Source: a virus. From it: 30,494 nucleotides of DNA. The position numbers and the translations under genes were made by a program. The stretch spans positions 1 to 30,494 of IMG/VR virus record IMGVR_UViG_3300048927_000816; one strand, written 5' to 3'. The notes beneath the pieces are model-generated. The model was not told where the DNA came from. It worked only from the letters and a program-made list of their open reading frames with translations, and did no database searches. Shown here one piece after another: positions 4,959 through 27,681 of the stretch (the first letter of the stretch is position 1; each line of letters opens with the position of its first letter).

Positions 4959-5873
4959 TTGGACAAAACCAAATACAAAATTGAACGTCGCTACATTACT
5001 AAGCGTTCCAATACAAGACCAGGTACTCGGTTAAAAACGGGTAGCCCGGTCTTTTTTGTTGCCCACGATACAGGCAATCCGGGCGCAGGAGCAGAAAATC
5101 ACTATAGCTACTTTAACACACAAAAAGATAGAAGCGCCTCGGCACATGTCTTTATTGATGACAAAATGATACTAGAAATCATCCCAACAGGAACTGGAGG
5201 TGATCCTGCGGAAAAAGCATGGCACGTACTTTACAATGTGACGACAGATAATGAACGTTTTGGATATGACAGCAATGATGCCGCATTAGGGATTGAGTTA
5301 TGTTATGGGGCTAATAAAAATAACAGCATCAATTTCGACGAAGCCTATAAACGCTTTGTTTGGTATCTAGCTTACTGCTGTGATAAGTGGGGCAAGAATC
5401 CTTTTGTACACATTCCGTCGCATAAGCAGTTAGATCCTGCCCGTAAACGTGATGTAGATCAGGCACTGGCTTTATACGGTAAGACATTAAAGGATTTATT
5501 GAATGATGTGGCAGCGGAACTTAAAGCAGTACCACAAGTCACATTAGACTTTGTACCACTTGATAAGAGCATAGCTGAGTCACTGATTAAGGAATATATT
5601 TCTCCTGCTTGGTTTGCGTATAAAGGGGATAAAGATGGGCAACAGCATTTCCACAACTTGGCCAACAATTTAAGACTTAATGCAGGTCTGCCTGTAAATG
5701 GTGTTGTATCACCATTAGCTAAGCTTCACAAGAGCAATGCACAGGAGATAATTTTTAGGTGGCTATCTCCTGCTTGGTTTGCTGCAAAAGAAGCTGGCAA
5801 CAGCGACACAGCCAATCAATTAAATACTACAGCTAACCAGTTAAGACGTGCTGCTGGATTACCTATTGAGTAA
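4959..5873 (+). CDS. N-acetylmuramoyl-L-alanine amidase (endolysin) with two C-terminal repeats
   Basis: The 304-residue phage endolysin. It cleaves the amide bond between N-acetylmuramic acid and L-alanine in peptidoglycan. Start TTG 4959 has GGAGGG at 4947-4952. Residues ~30-170 are an Amidase_2/PGRP-type zinc domain: FFVAHDTGNPG with H36, AWHV with H89, ALGIEL with E113, and HKQLDPARKRD with H155 and D165; H36 and H155 are the likely zinc ligands. Residues ~212-248 and 267-304 are tandem repeats sharing SPAWFA, then NxLR and AGLP, probably a wall-binding module. It has no signal peptide, so export relies on the holin. Confidence 0.92.
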   Translation: MDKTKYKIERRYITKRSNTRPGTRLKTGSPVFFVAHDTGNPGAGAENHYSYFNTQKDRSASAHVFIDDKMILEIIPTGTGGDPAEKAWHVLYNVTTDNERFGYDSNDAALGIELCYGANKNNSINFDEAYKRFVWYLAYCCDKWGKNPFVHIPSHKQLDPARKRDVDQALALYGKTLKDLLNDVAAELKAVPQVTLDFVPLDKSIAESLIKEYISPAWFAYKGDKDGQQHFHNLANNLRLNAGLPVNGVVSPLAKLHKSNAQEIIFRWLSPAWFAAKEAGNSDTANQLNTTANQLRRAAGLPIE

Positions 5874-5897
5874 ATAATATTGAGAGGATTGAGTGAA

Positions 5898-6176
5898 ATG
5901 GAAAATCAAAATTTAACAGAAGTATTTGCTTTTGCTTCTTTGTTATCAGTGTTTGTACTAGCCATAGTACAATTAGTTAAAGTTGCCGTTAACGTGCCCA
6001 AAAATATTTTACCTCTTGTAGGTTTAGGGGTTGGATTAGTAATTGGTCTAGTCTCCTTTCCATTTACTGATTTAGAGCTTGTATTACGTTTGTGGGCTGG
6101 AGGATTGGCAGGACTAAGCGCAACGGGATTATTTGAACTTGCTTTTAATAAGCGAAATGGAAATACAAAAGAATAA
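5898..6176 (+). CDS. Holin
   Basis: A 92-residue protein with a hydrophobic segment at ~8-30 (VFAFASLLSVFVLAIVQLVK), a second at ~38-58 (ILPLVGLGVGLVIGLVSF) and a third, weaker one around LRLWAGGLAGLSATGLFEL, ending in a charged tail (KRNGNTKE). Size, topology and position behind the amidase are those of phage holins, which permeabilise the membrane and release the endolysin. ATG 5898 is preferred over TTG 5880; GAGAGG lies at 5882-5887, and spacing is slightly long. It closes the plus-strand lysis cassette. Confidence 0.8.
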   Translation: MENQNLTEVFAFASLLSVFVLAIVQLVKVAVNVPKNILPLVGLGVGLVIGLVSFPFTDLELVLRLWAGGLAGLSATGLFELAFNKRNGNTKE

Positions 6177-6180
6177 ATTC

Positions 6181-6212
6181 TATAGCTCACATACTCAATT
6201 CAGTGAGCTATA
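6181..6212. terminator. Inverted repeat between convergent genes
   Basis: A perfect 10-base inverted repeat, TATAGCTCAC (6181-6190) and GTGAGCTATA (6203-6212), lies exactly between the holin stop and the stop of the minus-strand gene. A bidirectional terminator is likely from position; T-runs are poor on both sides. Confidence 0.55.
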
Positions 6213-6221
6213 GTTACTAAA

Positions 6222-6896
6222 TTATCCAAATATTCTTATTACTTCATTAATAACTTTTAATCCTGGAAGATAATCTTCAAGTACACTATTCATCAATTGG
6301 GCTATTAATATATCTCTTTGTTCTTCCAACTTTTCTTCTAGTTCTTTACGTTTGTTTTCAGGATAGTCATTGTTTGATTCAGGCTTGAAGTCAAATGAAG
6401 GAACTTCAATTTTTGATACATCTTGTGTTATATTTACAACTAAACGTGTTATCCACTCTGTCCTATATAAATCTTGTGAGACATTTCGCAGAATGATATG
6501 GATTAGAATTTGACATGAGATTTCTTTCCCGTCAAATCCCAAGTTTACTTTAGGTATACCTCTAAGACCAAGGTCTAAAAGAAATTGAAGTTTATCTTCT
6601 AGATATGTTTCACAGAAACTTTCTGCCTTCTCAAGTATCTTTCTTTTTAATTGTTCTTGATCGAGTGTAGAGTTTAACACATCAAGTCTTTTAACAGTTT
6701 CTTCAAGATAACGTTTTCCTTCTTCGGTAAGCTGTTTTTCACCTTCGTCTTTTGCTTTCTCAATGACTTTAGCAAAATCCTTGGAAGACACCTGTTTTCC
6801 TTGTTTTAATGCGTCATTAAGATTACCAACAACACCTCCAAATGTACCATTAAACACATTACCCAGACCTCTTCCAAGATCACCTAAATTAGGCAT
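6222..6896 (-). CDS. Unrecognised 224-residue protein (moron candidate)
   Basis: A single minus-strand gene between the plus-strand lysis cassette and the late terminator at 7023-7057. The first ~35 residues are glycine-rich and amphipathic (LGRGLGNVFNGTFGGVVG), with GxxxG spacing. A charged helical stretch (~45-105) follows, then a strand-rich middle (IPKVNLGFDGKEISCQILIH) and a helical Glu/Lys-rich C-terminal part (ENKRKELEEKLEEQRDILIA). No classical signal peptide. AAAGGATGTGAGG lies just upstream of the ATG; a TATAAT box is at 6927-6932. I do not recognise the family. Its strand and position suggest a lysogeny-expressed cargo gene. Confidence 0.82.
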   Translation of the reverse strand: MPNLGDLGRGLGNVFNGTFGGVVGNLNDALKQGKQVSSKDFAKVIEKAKDEGEKQLTEEGKRYLEETVKRLDVLNSTLDQEQLKRKILEKAESFCETYLEDKLQFLLDLGLRGIPKVNLGFDGKEISCQILIHIILRNVSQDLYRTEWITRLVVNITQDVSKIEVPSFDFKPESNNDYPENKRKELEEKLEEQRDILIAQLMNSVLEDYLPGLKVINEVIRIFG

Positions 6897-7022
6897 TGCC
6901 TCACATCCTTTTGTTTTAATCTTTCGATTATAGAATTTCCTGATTACTGGATATTATTCTTGAAGATATTTATAGTCCATCCTAATAAACTATTATTTAA
7001 TTAAATACGAAGCATAGGTAAA

Positions 7023-7057
7023 GCCCATCATCCTTAAATGGTTGGTGGGCTTTTTTT
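7023..7057 (+). terminator. Strong rho-independent terminator
   Basis: GCCCATCA (7023-7030) and TGGTGGGC (7043-7050), a stem with one internal wobble, followed by seven T (7051-7057). It is oriented for plus-strand transcripts, yet the nearest plus-strand gene upstream is the holin, ending 850 bases earlier. It is probably the original end of the late operon, separated from it by insertion of the minus-strand gene at 6222-6896. Confidence 0.8.
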
Positions 7058-7062
7058 AGTTA

Positions 7063-7091
7063 TTGAAGTAGGAACGTTTGTTCTATATAAT
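7063..7091 (+). promoter_or_regulatory. Promoter with LexA-type SOS box in the spacer
   Basis: TTGAAG (7063-7068), a 17-base spacer and TATAAT (7086-7091). The spacer contains GAAC-GTTT-GTTC (7072-7083), which matches the core GAAC-N4-GTTC of the Bacillus LexA (DinR) box; the outer bases and one inner base differ from the full consensus CGAACRNRYGTTYG. LexA bound here would block the promoter, so the downstream gene is predicted to be DNA-damage inducible. Confidence 0.75.
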
Positions 7092-7126
7092 TAGGTACTA
7101 GATAATTTATTTTGAACGGAGTGTTT

Positions 7127-7408
7127 ATGATGCTTCAAGATATTGAACGAAAATTACTAAGAGTACTATACAACTTTAGCCGAATGAAGCACAGGATGCC
7201 CATGTGGGTAGAGCTAGAGCACAAGATGGGGCACAATAAACCTGTCATTCAGGATGCTTTACGAGGGTTAGTAGAAAAACAATATATTTTCTATCCAGAC
7301 AATCCTGATCTAAGTACCTTAGTAATTTTAAAGACAGAGTATCAGGAGGATTTACCAACTAAGAAAAGCGGGACATCAAGTAACATAGATTATTGGACAA
7401 AGTACTAG
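7127..7408 (+). CDS. Small winged-helix protein, predicted SOS-inducible
   Basis: A 93-residue protein with its own promoter containing a LexA-type box, flanked by terminators at 7023-7057 and 7418-7449, so a monocistronic unit. Residues ~3-65 (DIERKLLRVLYNFSR, MPMWVELEHKMGHNKPVIQD, ALRGLVEKQYIFYPDN) have the helix-turn-helix then wing layout of LexA-type N-terminal domains, with no protease domain. ATG 7127 or 7130 may be the start (GGAG at 7118-7121). A role as an SOS-induced regulator or antirepressor that triggers prophage induction is plausible but inferred from the promoter and fold only. Confidence 0.75.
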   Translation: MMLQDIERKLLRVLYNFSRMKHRMPMWVELEHKMGHNKPVIQDALRGLVEKQYIFYPDNPDLSTLVILKTEYQEDLPTKKSGTSSNIDYWTKY

Positions 7409-9416: not shown

Positions 9417-9941
9417 TTATTCTTTAGGAGTAGAGAACTTAGCTCTAACTTCGTCAAACGCTTTTTGTGTTTCTGCCTTTTCGGATGGTGTGTAGCCAAA
9501 TGCAACTTTATCATCTGCTACTAAAATAATAATTTCTTTATTATCCTCTGATTTTAAAAGCACCAATGAACCTGTTTTTCCTTGGCTTTCAAAAGGTGTA
9601 GATTCGATAACTTCTGGGTTCTTGTATTTTTTCTCTTCTGGGGTATCGGCTGAAGCACCAAGCTCGAACAAGGATTTAACATCGGGATGAACATTTTCCT
9701 CAACAAACTTCTTTTTGCTTTCTTTATCGCTGTTGAGATAGTCATTTATGTATGCCAGTGCTAACGTCTCATCCGATGATAGTTCTTTTGGTTTTTCAAC
9801 TGGTTCTTGTGTTTCTTCCCCTTTATTGTCCGTAGAGGTGACCTCGGATGTGCTTGTCACATCTTTATTGGGGGAGTTAGAGTTGCACCCAGAAACTAAT
9901 ACAGATAAAGCGATAAAACAAACTAATATAAGTTTTTTCAA
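9417..9941 (-). CDS. Lipoprotein (moron, function unknown)
   Basis: A 174-residue protein starting at TTG 9941 with AAGGAGG upstream. The first 19 residues are a lipoprotein signal peptide: KK, a hydrophobic stretch, and the lipobox LVSGC with C19 as the lipidated residue. A low-complexity Ser/Thr/Glu/Lys linker (~20-55) precedes a folded domain (LALAYINDYLNSDKESKKKF, HPDVKSLFELG, TGSLVLLKSEDNKEIIILVA). It would be anchored on the outer face of the membrane. Prophage lipoproteins of this sort often exclude other phages or alter the host surface; that role is inference. It is on the minus strand with its own promoter. Confidence 0.85.
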   Translation of the reverse strand: MKKLILVCFIALSVLVSGCNSNSPNKDVTSTSEVTSTDNKGEETQEPVEKPKELSSDETLALAYINDYLNSDKESKKKFVEENVHPDVKSLFELGASADTPEEKKYKNPEVIESTPFESQGKTGSLVLLKSEDNKEIIILVADDKVAFGYTPSEKAETQKAFDEVRAKFSTPKE

Positions 9942-10346: not shown

Positions 10347-10493
10347 ATGGTAATGGATCTAAAATTACTCGAACTGCAACGGCTTTTTTTGCGTTCTCTT
10401 AGAGGTATACGAAACTTTGAAAGGAGGGATGATTATAAGGATGTAACAACGAGAGGAGACAGACATCATGAAAATACCATTGATAACAAGTGA
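10347..10493 (+). CDS. Possible 48-residue protein before the LytTR gene
   Basis: A frame from ATG 10347 (or 10353) that begins MVMDLKLLELQRLFLRSLRG and overlaps the start of the LytTR gene by 26 bases. The N-terminal half has a believable amphipathic helix pattern. No ribosome binding site is visible, and the C-terminal half comes from the ribosome binding site region of the next gene. I list it as doubtful. Confidence 0.2.
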   Translation: MVMDLKLLELQRLFLRSLRGIRNFERRDDYKDVTTRGDRHHENTIDNK

Positions 10494-10788
10494 AGGTAAG
10501 CCAGTATGGATAGATGCAAGTAAGATAATTGCAATGGAGTCGGTCAACAATGACTTAACGTTTTATAGCTATGATGAAGAGTATACAACGCCTAAAAATC
10601 TAAAAGAGTGGGAGTTATTGCTTGCTCATTATGGGTTTGCGATAGCTTCAAGATCAGCAATTGTTAACACAACTCTAGTTCAAAAGTATGACGAAAAAAA
10701 GAAATTTATTGAGTTCGACAGGATTCGGGAGGTTAAGGGAATACAAGTGGCAAGGAGAAATTCGAAGAAAATAAAAGACATGTTGTAG
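10468..10788 (+). CDS. Stand-alone LytTR DNA-binding regulator
   Basis: A 106-residue protein; ATG 10468 behind GAGAGGAG. Residues ~25-106 carry the LytTR pattern: FYSYDEEY strand, KNLKEWELLLAHYGFAIASR, then SAIVNTTLVQKYD and a C-terminal VARRNSKKIKDML, corresponding to the usual F-x-R-x-H-x-S-x-x-VN and SR-x-x-x-x-L positions. There is no receiver domain and no neighbouring kinase, so control must come from expression or a ligand. Small LytTR proteins occur in Firmicutes prophages as regulators; the targets here are unknown. It is transcribed away from the minus-strand lipoprotein. Confidence 0.82.
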   Translation: MKIPLITSEGKPVWIDASKIIAMESVNNDLTFYSYDEEYTTPKNLKEWELLLAHYGFAIASRSAIVNTTLVQKYDEKKKFIEFDRIREVKGIQVARRNSKKIKDML

Positions 10789-10943: not shown

Positions 10944-11162
10944 TCAATCGGCTGAAATCTTCCATTGGTACAGTTGTTCCATTGGTATTTCCAAAATCAC
11001 AGCAGCGGTGTACATAGCTTCTACGCTCATCAAACGATCGTCGTTGCAATAGTGAGAGATCATACGCTTTGACCATCCAGATTTACGAGCAAAATCAGCT
11101 TGAGTCATTCCGCGCTTTTTCAGCCAATATCTAAGCAGGCAACTCCCACGGGAGTATGCCAC
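10944..11162 (-). CDS. XRE-family regulator behind a LexA-type box
   Basis: A 72-residue protein starting at GTG 11162 with AGGAGG at 11174-11179. Residues ~8-66 form an XRE helix-turn-helix (LLRYWLKKRGMTQADFARKS, GWSKRMISHYCNDDRLMSVE, AMYTAAVILEIPMEQLYQWK). The box GAAC-GAAT-GTTC (11186-11197) stands 24 bases before the start, downstream of the promoter, so LexA would block transcription. An SOS-induced Cro-like or antirepressor role fits. It is transcribed in the same direction as CI but from a separate promoter at 11221-11248. Confidence 0.8.
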   Translation of the reverse strand: MAYSRGSCLLRYWLKKRGMTQADFARKSGWSKRMISHYCNDDRLMSVEAMYTAAVILEIPMEQLYQWKISAD

Positions 11163-11185
11163 TTAAAAATATTCCTCCTCTTAGC

Positions 11186-11248
11186 GAACGAATGTTCTTG
11201 TTTTTTATTACCGATATGGTATTATGTTTTTAGTGATTTGTTCGGCAA
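11186..11248. promoter_or_regulatory. LexA-type box and face-to-face promoters
   Basis: CGAAC-GAAT-GTTCT (11185-11198) matches 13 of 14 positions of the Bacillus LexA consensus CGAACRNRYGTTYG. Minus promoter: TTGCCG (11243-11248), 16 bases, CATAAT (11221-11226). Plus promoter: TTGTTT (11198-11203), 16 bases, TATTAT (11220-11225). A dyad TACC-GATAT-GGTA (11209-11221) lies in the shared spacer, possibly the site of the XRE protein itself. Confidence 0.72.
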
Positions 11249-11273: not shown

Positions 11274-11438
11274 ATCAGCAAAAAGGTAATTGATTTAAAG
11301 GTATTGTCAATAATCTTAGGAAAATCACCTGAGTTTTTAGAAGAAGTTATTCAGAACCCTTCAATTGGCGCTCAAAGCGAACAGTCGCAATCATTCGCAA
11401 ATACTCATCCTCGGTTAGTTCACGACCGTCAATCTTGA
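11274..11438 (+). pseudogene. Truncated plus-strand frame without a proper start
   Basis: The frame reads SKKVIDLKVLSIILGKSPEF and LEEVIQNPSIG, a sensible small-protein N-terminus, preceded by GGGAGTGATG at the right distance, but the start position is ATC (11274-11276). After ~30 codons it runs antisense through the end of the CI gene. A plus promoter exists at 11198-11225. It is probably a gene remnant cut at a recombination junction, or a gene using a very rare start. Confidence 0.35.
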
Positions 11439-12180
11439 GATCATAACGTTCTTTTATCTCTTTATCTGATAAATCTAATGATCTATCGAAAAGCTCTTTC
11501 TCGGCACTATACGAGGAAGGGCTTTCTTTGATTAAATATTTTGAATGTTCAATTTGATGATGAGAACAAAACTCCAATAATTCTTTCCAGAATACATCAA
11601 GATCTTTCTTTAAGACAATGAACCTATCCAAGTTTTGGAGTCCCTTTTTTATTGTACGGTAGTTATAAAATGTATTAAACCCTTCAACAGCATCTCTCTC
11701 ATCACTTAATGATTTTTCGTCATCTTCCTTTTCTAAAAACTCTTTGTACCACTTATCAAATGCGTGGGAATTTTGAAATGGAGATCTCTCATATACCTCG
11801 TTATCATCAGCATAGCCTCCAAAAATGTTGAAAATCTCTGGATGGTATTTAGCAATAAATAAGTTTTCGTCCGTGGTTATTTTTTTTAGCAATAAACATA
11901 TTTCATTCAGCAATACTTGTTCATCATAATAAATACTACTTAGGACAGTAGTGTCTTGGGTGTCTTTATCCCAGTAGCCAGCTGCGATCATTAGATCTCC
12001 ATATGGAACATCCAAGACTTTGGATAGTTTGCTTAGCACAGGTGCTTTTGGAGGGTTCCTTTCTCCGCTTTCAATTCTAGATAAGTGAGAATGACTTATT
12101 CCTACGGATAGCCCTACTTCTGTTAGAGTAAGATTTTTCTTTTCTCTGTAAGATTTAATTAGTTCACCAAATGTATTCAA
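11347..12180 (-). CDS. CI-like XRE repressor of the lysogenic state
   Basis: A 277-residue protein. Residues ~3-65 are an XRE helix-turn-helix (FGELIKSYREKKNLTLTEVG, SVGISHSHLSRIESGERNPP, LSKLSKVLDVPYGDLMIAAG). The remaining ~200 residues are helical and charged and end DGRELTEDEYLRMIATVRFE. I see neither a LexA/S24 Ser-Lys protease domain nor an HEXXH peptidase, so RecA-stimulated self-cleavage is not expected. TTG 12180 is taken as start; GTG 12189 is also possible. It faces away from the Cro-like gene across a region of TGTCA/TGACA operators and presumably represses that early promoter. Confidence 0.85.
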   Translation of the reverse strand: MNTFGELIKSYREKKNLTLTEVGLSVGISHSHLSRIESGERNPPKAPVLSKLSKVLDVPYGDLMIAAGYWDKDTQDTTVLSSIYYDEQVLLNEICLLLKKITTDENLFIAKYHPEIFNIFGGYADDNEVYERSPFQNSHAFDKWYKEFLEKEDDEKSLSDERDAVEGFNTFYNYRTIKKGLQNLDRFIVLKKDLDVFWKELLEFCSHHQIEHSKYLIKESPSSYSAEKELFDRSLDLSDKEIKERYDLKIDGRELTEDEYLRMIATVRFERQLKGSE

Positions 12181-12219
12181 AACAAACACCCACCATTTTT
12201 TTATTCTTAGTATTTTCCC

Positions 12220-13685: not shown

Positions 13686-13964
13686 ATGAACAAAAACCAA
13701 CAATGCCTGCAAGCACTTATTAACTTTTTCGTTGATCTTGAACAACGCATGTTACGCAAAGGTCGCCTAGTAATTGCTCTATATGCTAACAAGCAACAAC
13801 TTAAATATCGTAAAGAGTTATTTTGCACCTATGGTGAGGATAAACAACTTGATAACCTAGCCATCTACTTCCAACATTTCAACATCCAAGATCGCTATAA
13901 GATCACCTTTGAGTCCTTTGTCAGACAGGTACAGCAAGGTACATGGGAGGCGAGGCTAGCATGA
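13686..13964 (+). CDS. Unrecognised 92-residue early protein upstream of MazF-like toxin
   Basis: A basic, helical protein (ALINFFVDLEQRMLRKGRLV, YANKQQLKYRKELFCTYGED, FQHFNIQDRYKITFESFVRQ). Its stop overlaps the MazF-like start (ATGA), a typical antitoxin-toxin arrangement, but it shows no MazE-like AbrB fold or other known antitoxin motif. It could be an unrelated early protein or a novel partner of the toxin. Confidence 0.72.
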   Translation: MNKNQQCLQALINFFVDLEQRMLRKGRLVIALYANKQQLKYRKELFCTYGEDKQLDNLAIYFQHFNIQDRYKITFESFVRQVQQGTWEARLA

Positions 13965-14299
13965 GCGCCTATAAACGCGGGCAAGTCTGGTACGCCGATC
14001 TAGGCAGGGGTAAAGGCAGTGAGCAAAGCGGCGATCGTCCAGTACTAATCATACAAAACGACATAGGTAATCATCACAGTACAACCGTTATCGTTGCTGC
14101 TATGACGGACAAGCATAAGCCGCGTATTCCAACTCATGTAAAGCTCGATAAGGTGGTTGGAGTATCAGCTACTACTATCGTGTTGCTTGAGCAGATTCGT
14201 ACAGTAGACAAACTCAGGTTGAGTAATTGCATAGCAACATTGCCTAAAGAAGCGATGGAGCAAGTAGATGCTGCTTTAGCAATAAGCATTGGATTATGA
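13961..14299 (+). CDS. MazF/PemK-family endoribonuclease, no recognised antitoxin
   Basis: A 112-residue protein; ATG 13961 with GGGAGG at 13944-13950. The MazF signature is clear: YKRGQVWYADLG, GSEQSGDRPVLIIQNDIGN, STTVIVAAMTDK, PTHVKLD, STVVLLEQIRT-like QIRTVDK. R26 in GDRPVLI and the TVIVAAMT strand hold the usual catalytic Arg and Thr. MazF toxins cleave mRNA at short sequences. The neighbours are a helical protein (overlap 4 bases) upstream and a zinc-ribbon microprotein downstream; neither is MazE. In an early phage operon it may degrade host transcripts, or be a stabilisation toxin. Confidence 0.9.
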   Translation: MSAYKRGQVWYADLGRGKGSEQSGDRPVLIIQNDIGNHHSTTVIVAAMTDKHKPRIPTHVKLDKVVGVSATTIVLLEQIRTVDKLRLSNCIATLPKEAMEQVDAALAISIGL

Positions 14300-26676: not shown

Positions 26677-27681
26677 ATGTTAAAAATACTAGAATTATTC
26701 GGAGGGATTGGCGCTCCTAGAAAAGCATTAATCAACTTGGGAGTAGAGCATAAGTGCATTGATTACGTTGAGTGGAAGGCTAACAGAGTTCGAGCGTACA
26801 ACGCACTTTATGATCACCTGCATCATCCTCAAGATGTTAGGACATGGAATCTACGTCCTGATATTGCAGTGCACGGCTCACCTTGCCAAGACAATAGCAA
26901 AGCAAATAAAAAACGCAAGGGTGCTGCTAAGGGTTCCCGATCACAACTTTTGAATGAGACGTTAAGAATTATTAAAGAAATGGGGAACTGGCGACCTAAA
27001 GTTGTTATTTGGGAAAACGTTACGGGTGTTCTTGATAAAGATGTTTTCCCTATATTTAATCACTACATGCAGGTGATGCGGGGTCAAGGCTACACCAACG
27101 CATATGATGTGCTTGACGCTAGAGATTTCGGCATTCCCCAAGCTCGTGAGAGAGTCTTCTGTGTGTCTATATTAGGTGATAAAGTCTTTGATTTCAGTAA
27201 ATTACAGCTACAACCAATGAGGGATATAAAAGAATTTTTGGAGTACGGACCTCAAGACGATATTCCACAACAATACCTCATCAATATACCCTCAATGCTG
27301 AGCAAAATAACAGAGTTTAATCCTAATCCTACAGGCAGTTATAAGAGACGGTTAGATGTAATAGATTCGTTCTGTTACACGATTTCTGAACGTCAAGACA
27401 GGTGTCCAAATGCAGGTATCATCCGCTTGGACAGACCTGAATACCGCTACTTAACAGAGCGTGAATGTTGGAGATTGTTAGGATTCGACGATGAAGACTT
27501 TGATTTAATGCTAAAAGAGTTCCCCTCTAAAGAGGGAAAGCGAAACGCAACTCTTTATGCATTAGCAGGCAACAGCATTGTAGTGCAGGTATTAGAAGCT
27601 ATTTTTAAAGTGATCATCGACGAAGATTACGGAACGGATTTAACCACTGATATGAATGGACAAATTCAACTGGCTTTTTAG
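26677..27681 (+). CDS. DNA (cytosine-5) methyltransferase
   Basis: A 334-residue protein; ATG 26677 with AGGAGGAG. ILELFGGIGAPRKALI is motif I (SAM binding), HGSPCQDNS has the catalytic C70 (motif IV), IWENVTGVL has E113-N-V (motif VI), PQARERVFCV has QAR (motif VIII), and LAGNSIVVQVLEAIF is motif X. The target recognition domain lies between ~190 and ~290. It probably protects phage DNA from host restriction or marks origins. No restriction enzyme is nearby, so it is an orphan methylase. The recognition sequence cannot be read from the sequence. Confidence 0.93.
   Translation: MLKILELFGGIGAPRKALINLGVEHKCIDYVEWKANRVRAYNALYDHLHHPQDVRTWNLRPDIAVHGSPCQDNSKANKKRKGAAKGSRSQLLNETLRIIKEMGNWRPKVVIWENVTGVLDKDVFPIFNHYMQVMRGQGYTNAYDVLDARDFGIPQARERVFCVSILGDKVFDFSKLQLQPMRDIKEFLEYGPQDDIPQQYLINIPSMLSKITEFNPNPTGSYKRRLDVIDSFCYTISERQDRCPNAGIIRLDRPEYRYLTERECWRLLGFDDEDFDLMLKEFPSKEGKRNATLYALAGNSIVVQVLEAIFKVIIDEDYGTDLTTDMNGQIQLAF

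Follow-up and report, generated by a model that had tools for sequence, protein, structure and literature searches.

Antiviral systems carried by prophages and their satellites are known to collect in hotspots, which have been described for P2/P4, for Vibrio K139-like prophages and for a Bacillus prophage (Rousset et al. 2022, PMC9122126). The Bacillus hotspot is located between a regulator and a peptidase, beside the integrase. Accessory genes linked to a lysis module have also been described: PdpSau, a 278-residue protein of Staphylococcus aureus prophages, is encoded right behind the amidase and acts through an abortive infection in which the membrane is damaged (Kuntova et al. 2023, PMC10127798).

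Here we analyzed a linear IMG/VR virus record (IMGVR_UViG_3300048927_000816) over its 30,494 bases, hereafter the window, in which the original prediction had pointed to a minus-strand gene, here called the cargo gene, at a site typical for lysogenic-conversion genes. Like the hotspots of Rousset et al., the locus is small and variable (about 1-5 kb), has conserved phage anchors, and holds unrelated defence systems. Unlike them, its anchors are a holin on the left and a winged-helix (wHTH) gene with an SOS promoter on the right, it belongs to another group of phages, and the cargo of the window is an unclassified gene, known here from sequence alone. The cargo gene shares with PdpSau its link to a lysis module and a similar size, and PdpSau has an N-terminal membrane-binding helix. 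The two differ in that the cargo protein lacks the true transmembrane helix and the OB-like domain of PdpSau, and in gene orientation: PdpSau shares its strand with the lysis genes, whereas the cargo gene lies on the opposite one. Homology between the two was rejected (BLASTP E 0.21; hhalign probability 0.1). By analogy, PdpSau may serve as a model of how the cargo protein functions.

Results

Organization of the locus

The left part of the window carries, on the plus strand, tail genes, an amidase endolysin, and a Hol118-type holin. The features from the lysis cassette to the SOS-controlled gene are collected in Table 1.

Table 1 Features between the endolysin and the SOS-controlled gene, with positions given as those of the window
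Feature	Position	Strand	Evidence
Endolysin (Amidase_2, N-acetylmuramoyl-L-alanine amidase), lysis cassette anchor	4959-5873	+	PF01510 E 6.7e-13; phrog_833 E 1.2e-30
Hol118-like holin, left anchor of the slot	5880-6176	+	PF06946 E 7.5e-8; phrog_1299 E 2.2e-17
11-bp inverted repeat in the gap between holin and cargo gene	6180-6213		Fold -15.6 kcal/mol (plus), -16.6 kcal/mol (minus); z about -5 (plus -5.7)
Cargo gene, 224 residues, rare unnamed family	6222-6896	-	ORF list; homologues; no known-family match
RBS-like sequence before the cargo ATG	6899-6911	-	AAAGGATGTGAGG
Candidate cargo promoter (putative, weak)	6927-6954	-	Perfect TATAAT at 6932-6927, poor -35; 8/12 matches in a script scan
Strong intrinsic terminator	7020-7057	+	Stem 7020-7053, seven T at 7051-7057; -20.2 kcal/mol, z -5.1
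SOS-type promoter, right anchor of the slot	7063-7091	+	TTGAAG, LexA-like box GAACGTTTGTTC (7072-7083), TATAAT
orf7112, small winged-helix-like protein, 98 residues, SOS-controlled	7112-7408	+	phrog_3502 E 2.4e-10

The original prediction placed a minus-strand gene of 224 residues between the holin and a strong plus-oriented terminator with seven T, and each of these elements was found. In the folding analysis, shuffled sequences were never as good as the terminator. The terminator had also been said to stand without a gene of its own, which agrees with our finding of no plausible RBS-led gene on the plus strand between 6177 and 7020. The hairpin behind the holin had been called weak; this is true of it only as a terminator, because it has no T-tract in the plus direction. 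It is a leaky stop for late transcription and, lying downstream of the cargo gene without a clear T-tract, possibly the end of the cargo transcript.

An AT-rich stretch of 123 bases separates the cargo ORF from the terminator. The cargo gene itself has a GC content of 32.7% (GC3 0.196), compared with about 40% (39.9%) for the window; since the holin is likewise AT-rich (35.4%, GC3 0.20), this composition is weak evidence that the gene is a moron.

Empty sites in related phages

We compared the locus with 55 other holin relatives from viral contigs; in about 30 cases the contig continues beyond the holin for 1 kb or more. None of the 55 holin loci, these longer ones included, has a cargo homologue, and the cargo gene is therefore not a structural constant of these phages. 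The only other contig that bears it is a near-identical metagenome virus (L002/L003), which ends inside the gene. A large group of viral contigs of about 17 kb (L013, L020, L022, L023, L027, L029-L034, L036-L038, L040-L042, L050, and L051) ends 3-9 bases past the holin; this group, which shares the holin family, looks like phage-tail-like clusters of the PBSX or bacteriocin type with their ends trimmed.

As had been anticipated for phages that lack the gene, holin and terminator are adjacent in L006, L008, L014, L018, L025, L039, and L045, with the terminator lying within about 10-45 nt of the holin. The terminator of L006 (AAAGCCCTACTAACC...GGTTGGTAGGGCTTTTTTT) begins 9 nt past the end of the holin match and is nearly identical in design (AAAGCCC...AACC-loop-GGTTGGTRGGGCTTTTTTT) to that of the window. 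In L039, the holin, the terminator, a promoter of the form TTGAAT-LexA box-TATAAT, and the orf7112 homologue all lie within 98 nt. The same block of terminator and LexA-box promoter is found in L012, where it precedes a different gene. The order holin, terminator, LexA-box promoter, which spans less than 100 nt in L039 and L012, matches window positions 7020-7091, and the window keeps this order with 843 bases (6177-7019), which hold the cargo gene, inserted between holin and terminator. ORF 6222-6896 is thus very probably an accessory (moron) cargo gene in a variable slot. The window terminator could be the displaced holin terminator or, as a relic, the terminator of an earlier plus-strand cargo; the latter could be the case because L025 has terminators behind both its holin and its cargo.

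The slot between the holin and the SOS-controlled gene

Homologues of orf7112 stand behind the slot in L005, L007, L014, L025, and L039, and 49 further matches were found. A LexA-type box occurs no more than 400 nt upstream in 47 of these 49, when about 1 would be expected from shuffled sequences. The orf7112 family (phrog_3502; L068-L116) appears to consist of widespread, apparently uncharacterised SOS-controlled prophage regulators, and in some cases (L007, L045, L112, L115) a wHTH gene resembling the N-terminus of LexA precedes the orf7112 homologue.

Where the holin was found, the distance from it to orf7112 ranges from 98 to about 4900 nt (4888), and the genes in between are unrelated to each other. 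Several are known or candidate defence or toxin-antitoxin genes, in keeping with the suggested nature of the site: a DRT8 reverse transcriptase (E 2.5e-139) followed by an OLD/AriA-like AAA ATPase in L052, AbiD/Abi_2 (E 6.5e-37) in L054, an FRG protein of the PADLOC candidate defence family PDC-S15 in L014, an SLFN_AlbA_2 (Schlafen) protein in L010, a HigB-like toxin paired with an HTH-M78 protein (PD-Lambda-2_B, E 1.9e-32) in L048, RelA_SpoT and SocA_Panacea proteins in L043, and an antitoxin-type Panacea protein in L025. The L043 pair, a RelA/SpoT-domain toxin candidate and then a Panacea antitoxin candidate, directly follows the holin (L043:5558-6995). The slot genes of other relatives are not all defence genes and also comprise tail-fibre-like proteins, lipoproteins, small ORFs of Spo0E/HTH type, and proteins of unknown kind. 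The conservation profile around the holin shows turnover downstream; taken alone it is weak support, because there is turnover upstream in the tail-fibre region too and the loci were chosen by their holin.

Temperate Brevibacillus/Paenibacillus-type phages thus have a hotspot in the slot between the holin and the SOS-controlled regulator gene. In the literature searched, the coverage of which is incomplete, we found no published description of this holin-adjacent slot as a hotspot. Since the same slot holds different anti-virus and toxin-antitoxin genes in relatives, the cargo gene of the window is probably a host-protecting passenger. The slot, in which several phages have recognised systems and others have genes that are unrecognised, the window cargo among them, offers an addressable place for seeking new anti-phage systems in prophages of this type.

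The cargo family and its mobile homologues

The gene had been described as unrecognised, and we likewise obtained no family match in Pfam, PHROGs, PADLOC, or NCBIfam; PADLOC gave PDLC03672 at an E-value of only 0.009. Sequence searches of these collections and of the PDB returned chance-level matches only (tape-measure, SPOUT methyltransferase, YjdP repeat, homing endonuclease); where these touch the N-terminal half, they reflect its helical composition. A C-terminal domain (residues about 55-224) follows an N-terminus that is, as predicted, glycine-rich and amphipathic, with 8 Gly among the first 25 residues and a moderate moment of 0.46 (residues 2-19).

Two homologues were identified. The first, WP_257127154.1, is a hypothetical protein of the mobilizable Paenibacillus polymyxa plasmid pYS18 (NZ_CP085683.1), matched over the C-terminal 170 residues of the cargo protein (tblastn E 2e-6, 25% identity). 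It differs from the cargo protein in its longer, Ala/Glu/Lys-rich helical N-terminus and in its plasmid setting by parM partition genes. The second, retrieved with a two-sequence profile, is encoded on a prophage contig (IMGVR_UViG_2537562209_000003, L062), where no further gene follows before the contig stops; it lies on the same strand as the lysis cassette, directly behind it at a distance of about 190 nt. That cassette consists of XhlA, Holin_SPP1, and a VanY-type endolysin and is unrelated to the cassette of the window. In their C-terminal part the two homologues are about 60% identical to each other, and each is about 25% identical to the window protein; the N-termini of both are Ala/Glu/Lys-rich amphipathic helices instead of Gly-rich.

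The same frame is kept in these three diverged sequences, which confirms that the ORF is coding. Since one homologue is on a plasmid and the other in a prophage, the family passes between phages and a plasmid; on two occasions it has come to lie behind lysis genes. A tblastn search of 50,697 phage records with the cargo protein and both homologues gave no match, and two pattern scans of GTDB genome contigs, a method that requires near-exact peptides, confirmed no relative. A blastn search with window positions 4-8.5 kb did not find a similar plasmid, and its phage matches were limited to 92 bp of the endolysin. The family is unnamed and rare; the kind of location, a prophage accessory slot, is already known.

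Predicted structure of the cargo protein

AlphaFold models of the cargo family were of low confidence (mean pLDDT 51 and 59), and both consist of a long helix, four strands forming a curved sheet, and a second long helix. When these two models (pLDDT 51-59) were compared with known structures by VIA-align, TULIP proteins came out on top with Z 9.2-9.5 against a noise level of 7-8, Aha1 being nearly equal. The top neighbours were SPLUNC1, BPIFA1, and BPI or LBP, followed by CETP, Der p 7, JHBP, and YceB. The TULIP superfamily (SPLUNC1/BPIFA1, BPI, CETP, Der p 7, JHBP, E. coli YceB) would thus be like the cargo protein in its arrangement of helix, curved four-stranded sheet, and helix, as predicted for the latter; no sequence match between the two was found. 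We treat this likeness as a lead, because background comparisons often reach Z-scores of 7-8 and nothing significant came from Foldseek by itself (E 0.25). From these models, a TULIP fold for the cargo protein is possible but rather doubtful.

An amphipathic N-terminal helix is present in all three family members. In the L062 homologue, the N-terminal helices have a periodicity of 98.5 degrees, near the 11/3 repeat of lipid-binding amphipathic helices, and none of 1000 shuffled sequences had an equally strong periodicity. We tentatively suggest that the cargo protein acts at the membrane or binds lipid.

Discussion

A lysogeny-expressed gene that may protect the host

We hypothesize, with a probability of about one half, that the cargo is a membrane- or lipid-associating superinfection-exclusion or abortive-infection protein that resides in a variable slot, is expressed in lysogeny, and is shut off by late antisense transcription. 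In the lysogen, a leftward transcript would start at the gene's own promoter near 6927-6955 and end at the hairpin at 6180-6213 or nearby. The gene faces the late operon, and the strong terminator stands beyond it, so that late read-through would be antisense over the gene and its putative promoter. Upon induction, late transcripts passing the holin, where the hairpin has no T-tract, would run across the whole cargo gene to the terminator at 7020-7057. Such antisense transcription would silence the gene, fitting a function needed only in lysogeny; the layout thus predicts expression in the lysogen and silencing after induction. This convergent arrangement also yields a hypothesis, open to testing, for how such a gene could stay active in a lysogen yet be switched off when the phage enters lysis.

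The product would be cytosolic and probably membrane- or lipid-associating, with amphipathic N-terminal helices and a domain of helix, curved sheet, and helix. Its most likely role would be to shield the lysogen from other phages, either through superinfection exclusion or through abortive infection. Judging from the location, we lean slightly towards an anti-phage function; this role is a predicted one, and no homologue has an experimentally assigned function. A simple expression assay could make a new defence or exclusion family of the cargo family.

Alternative readings of the cargo gene

The best surviving alternative, which we nevertheless consider unlikely, is a lysogenic-conversion gene other than defence: one for envelope or lipid modification or stress fitness, or for a bacteriocin-like or immunity protein. 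The slot of L006, L012, and L039 also holds lipoproteins and small membrane proteins of unknown kind, the predicted lipid-binding-like fold would suit an envelope role, and the plasmid homologue indicates that the gene travels without a phage. Against this reading, the identifiable slot genes of relatives are mainly defence or toxin-antitoxin genes. In addition, no signal peptide, lipobox, or transmembrane segment was found in the cargo protein (the maximum 19-residue Kyte-Doolittle mean is 0.89, with none near the N-terminus), and nothing therefore marks it clearly as a surface protein or a secreted bacteriocin. For bacteriocin-like activity in particular, nothing speaks beyond the amphipathic N-terminus.

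A role within the lysis module, as a regulator or membrane partner of holin or endolysin, has only a small probability. The amphipathic helices and membrane-like features would be compatible with it, as would the position of the gene, which adjoins the holin in the window and stands directly behind the endolysin on the same strand in L062. However, the cargo gene is on the strand opposite to the lysis genes of the window, about 30 related phages that share the holin do not have it, its family occurs with two unrelated lysis cassettes, and the plasmid of its homologue has no lysis cassette among the listed genes. The analysis gave no ground for regarding the antiparallel gene as a lysis gene.

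Slightly less probable again is a mobile-element maintenance or toxin-antitoxin system in which the cargo protein would be the toxin or the sole effector. No partner ORF is present in the slot of the window or beside the L062 homologue, and the protein has no toxin-family match, even though toxin-antitoxin pairs occupy the slot of L043 and L048, a Panacea-type antitoxin gene that of L025, and the plasmid homologue adjoins parM partition genes. A structural or tail-related gene is hardly credible, as the weak tape-measure matches (PF20155 E 0.044, phrog_167 E 0.027) are at chance level and restricted to the coiled-coil N-terminal part, the late operon is on the other strand, relatives do not have the cargo gene, and a homologue is on a plasmid; the PF20155 match reached 13.9 bits against a curated cut-off of 41, and the tape-measure assignment was rejected.

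The exclusion or abortive-infection protein that we favor can be extended to a bolder proposal, in which the cargo would found an undescribed family of mobile-element proteins (prophage and plasmid) that combine an apolipoprotein-like amphipathic helical tail with a TULIP-like lipid-binding domain. Acting at the membrane, these proteins would exclude competing elements or abort infection by them, and late antisense transcription would shut the gene off once its own phage is induced. We regard this combination as improbable.

Other genes in the window

As a second candidate for lysogenic conversion, a putative lipoprotein gene (MKKLILVCFIALSVLVSGC; 9417-9941, minus strand) lies between the slot and the repressor region. 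Near the lysogeny control region, the plus strand encodes a protein with a LytTR DNA-binding domain (10468-10788; PF04397 E 1.6e-11), a homologue of which is found at L006:2503-2847. A second LexA-like box, CGAACGAATGTTC, is located at about 11185-11197 between the divergent HTH genes at 10944-11162 (minus) and 11347-12189 (minus). The early region contains a plus-strand gene for a toxin of the PemK/MazF family (13943-14299; PF02452 E 6e-31), with no obvious antitoxin ORF directly upstream. Further right, with no evident restriction partner gene adjoining, positions 26677-27681 of the plus strand encode a protein that by eye resembles a DNA cytosine methyltransferase.
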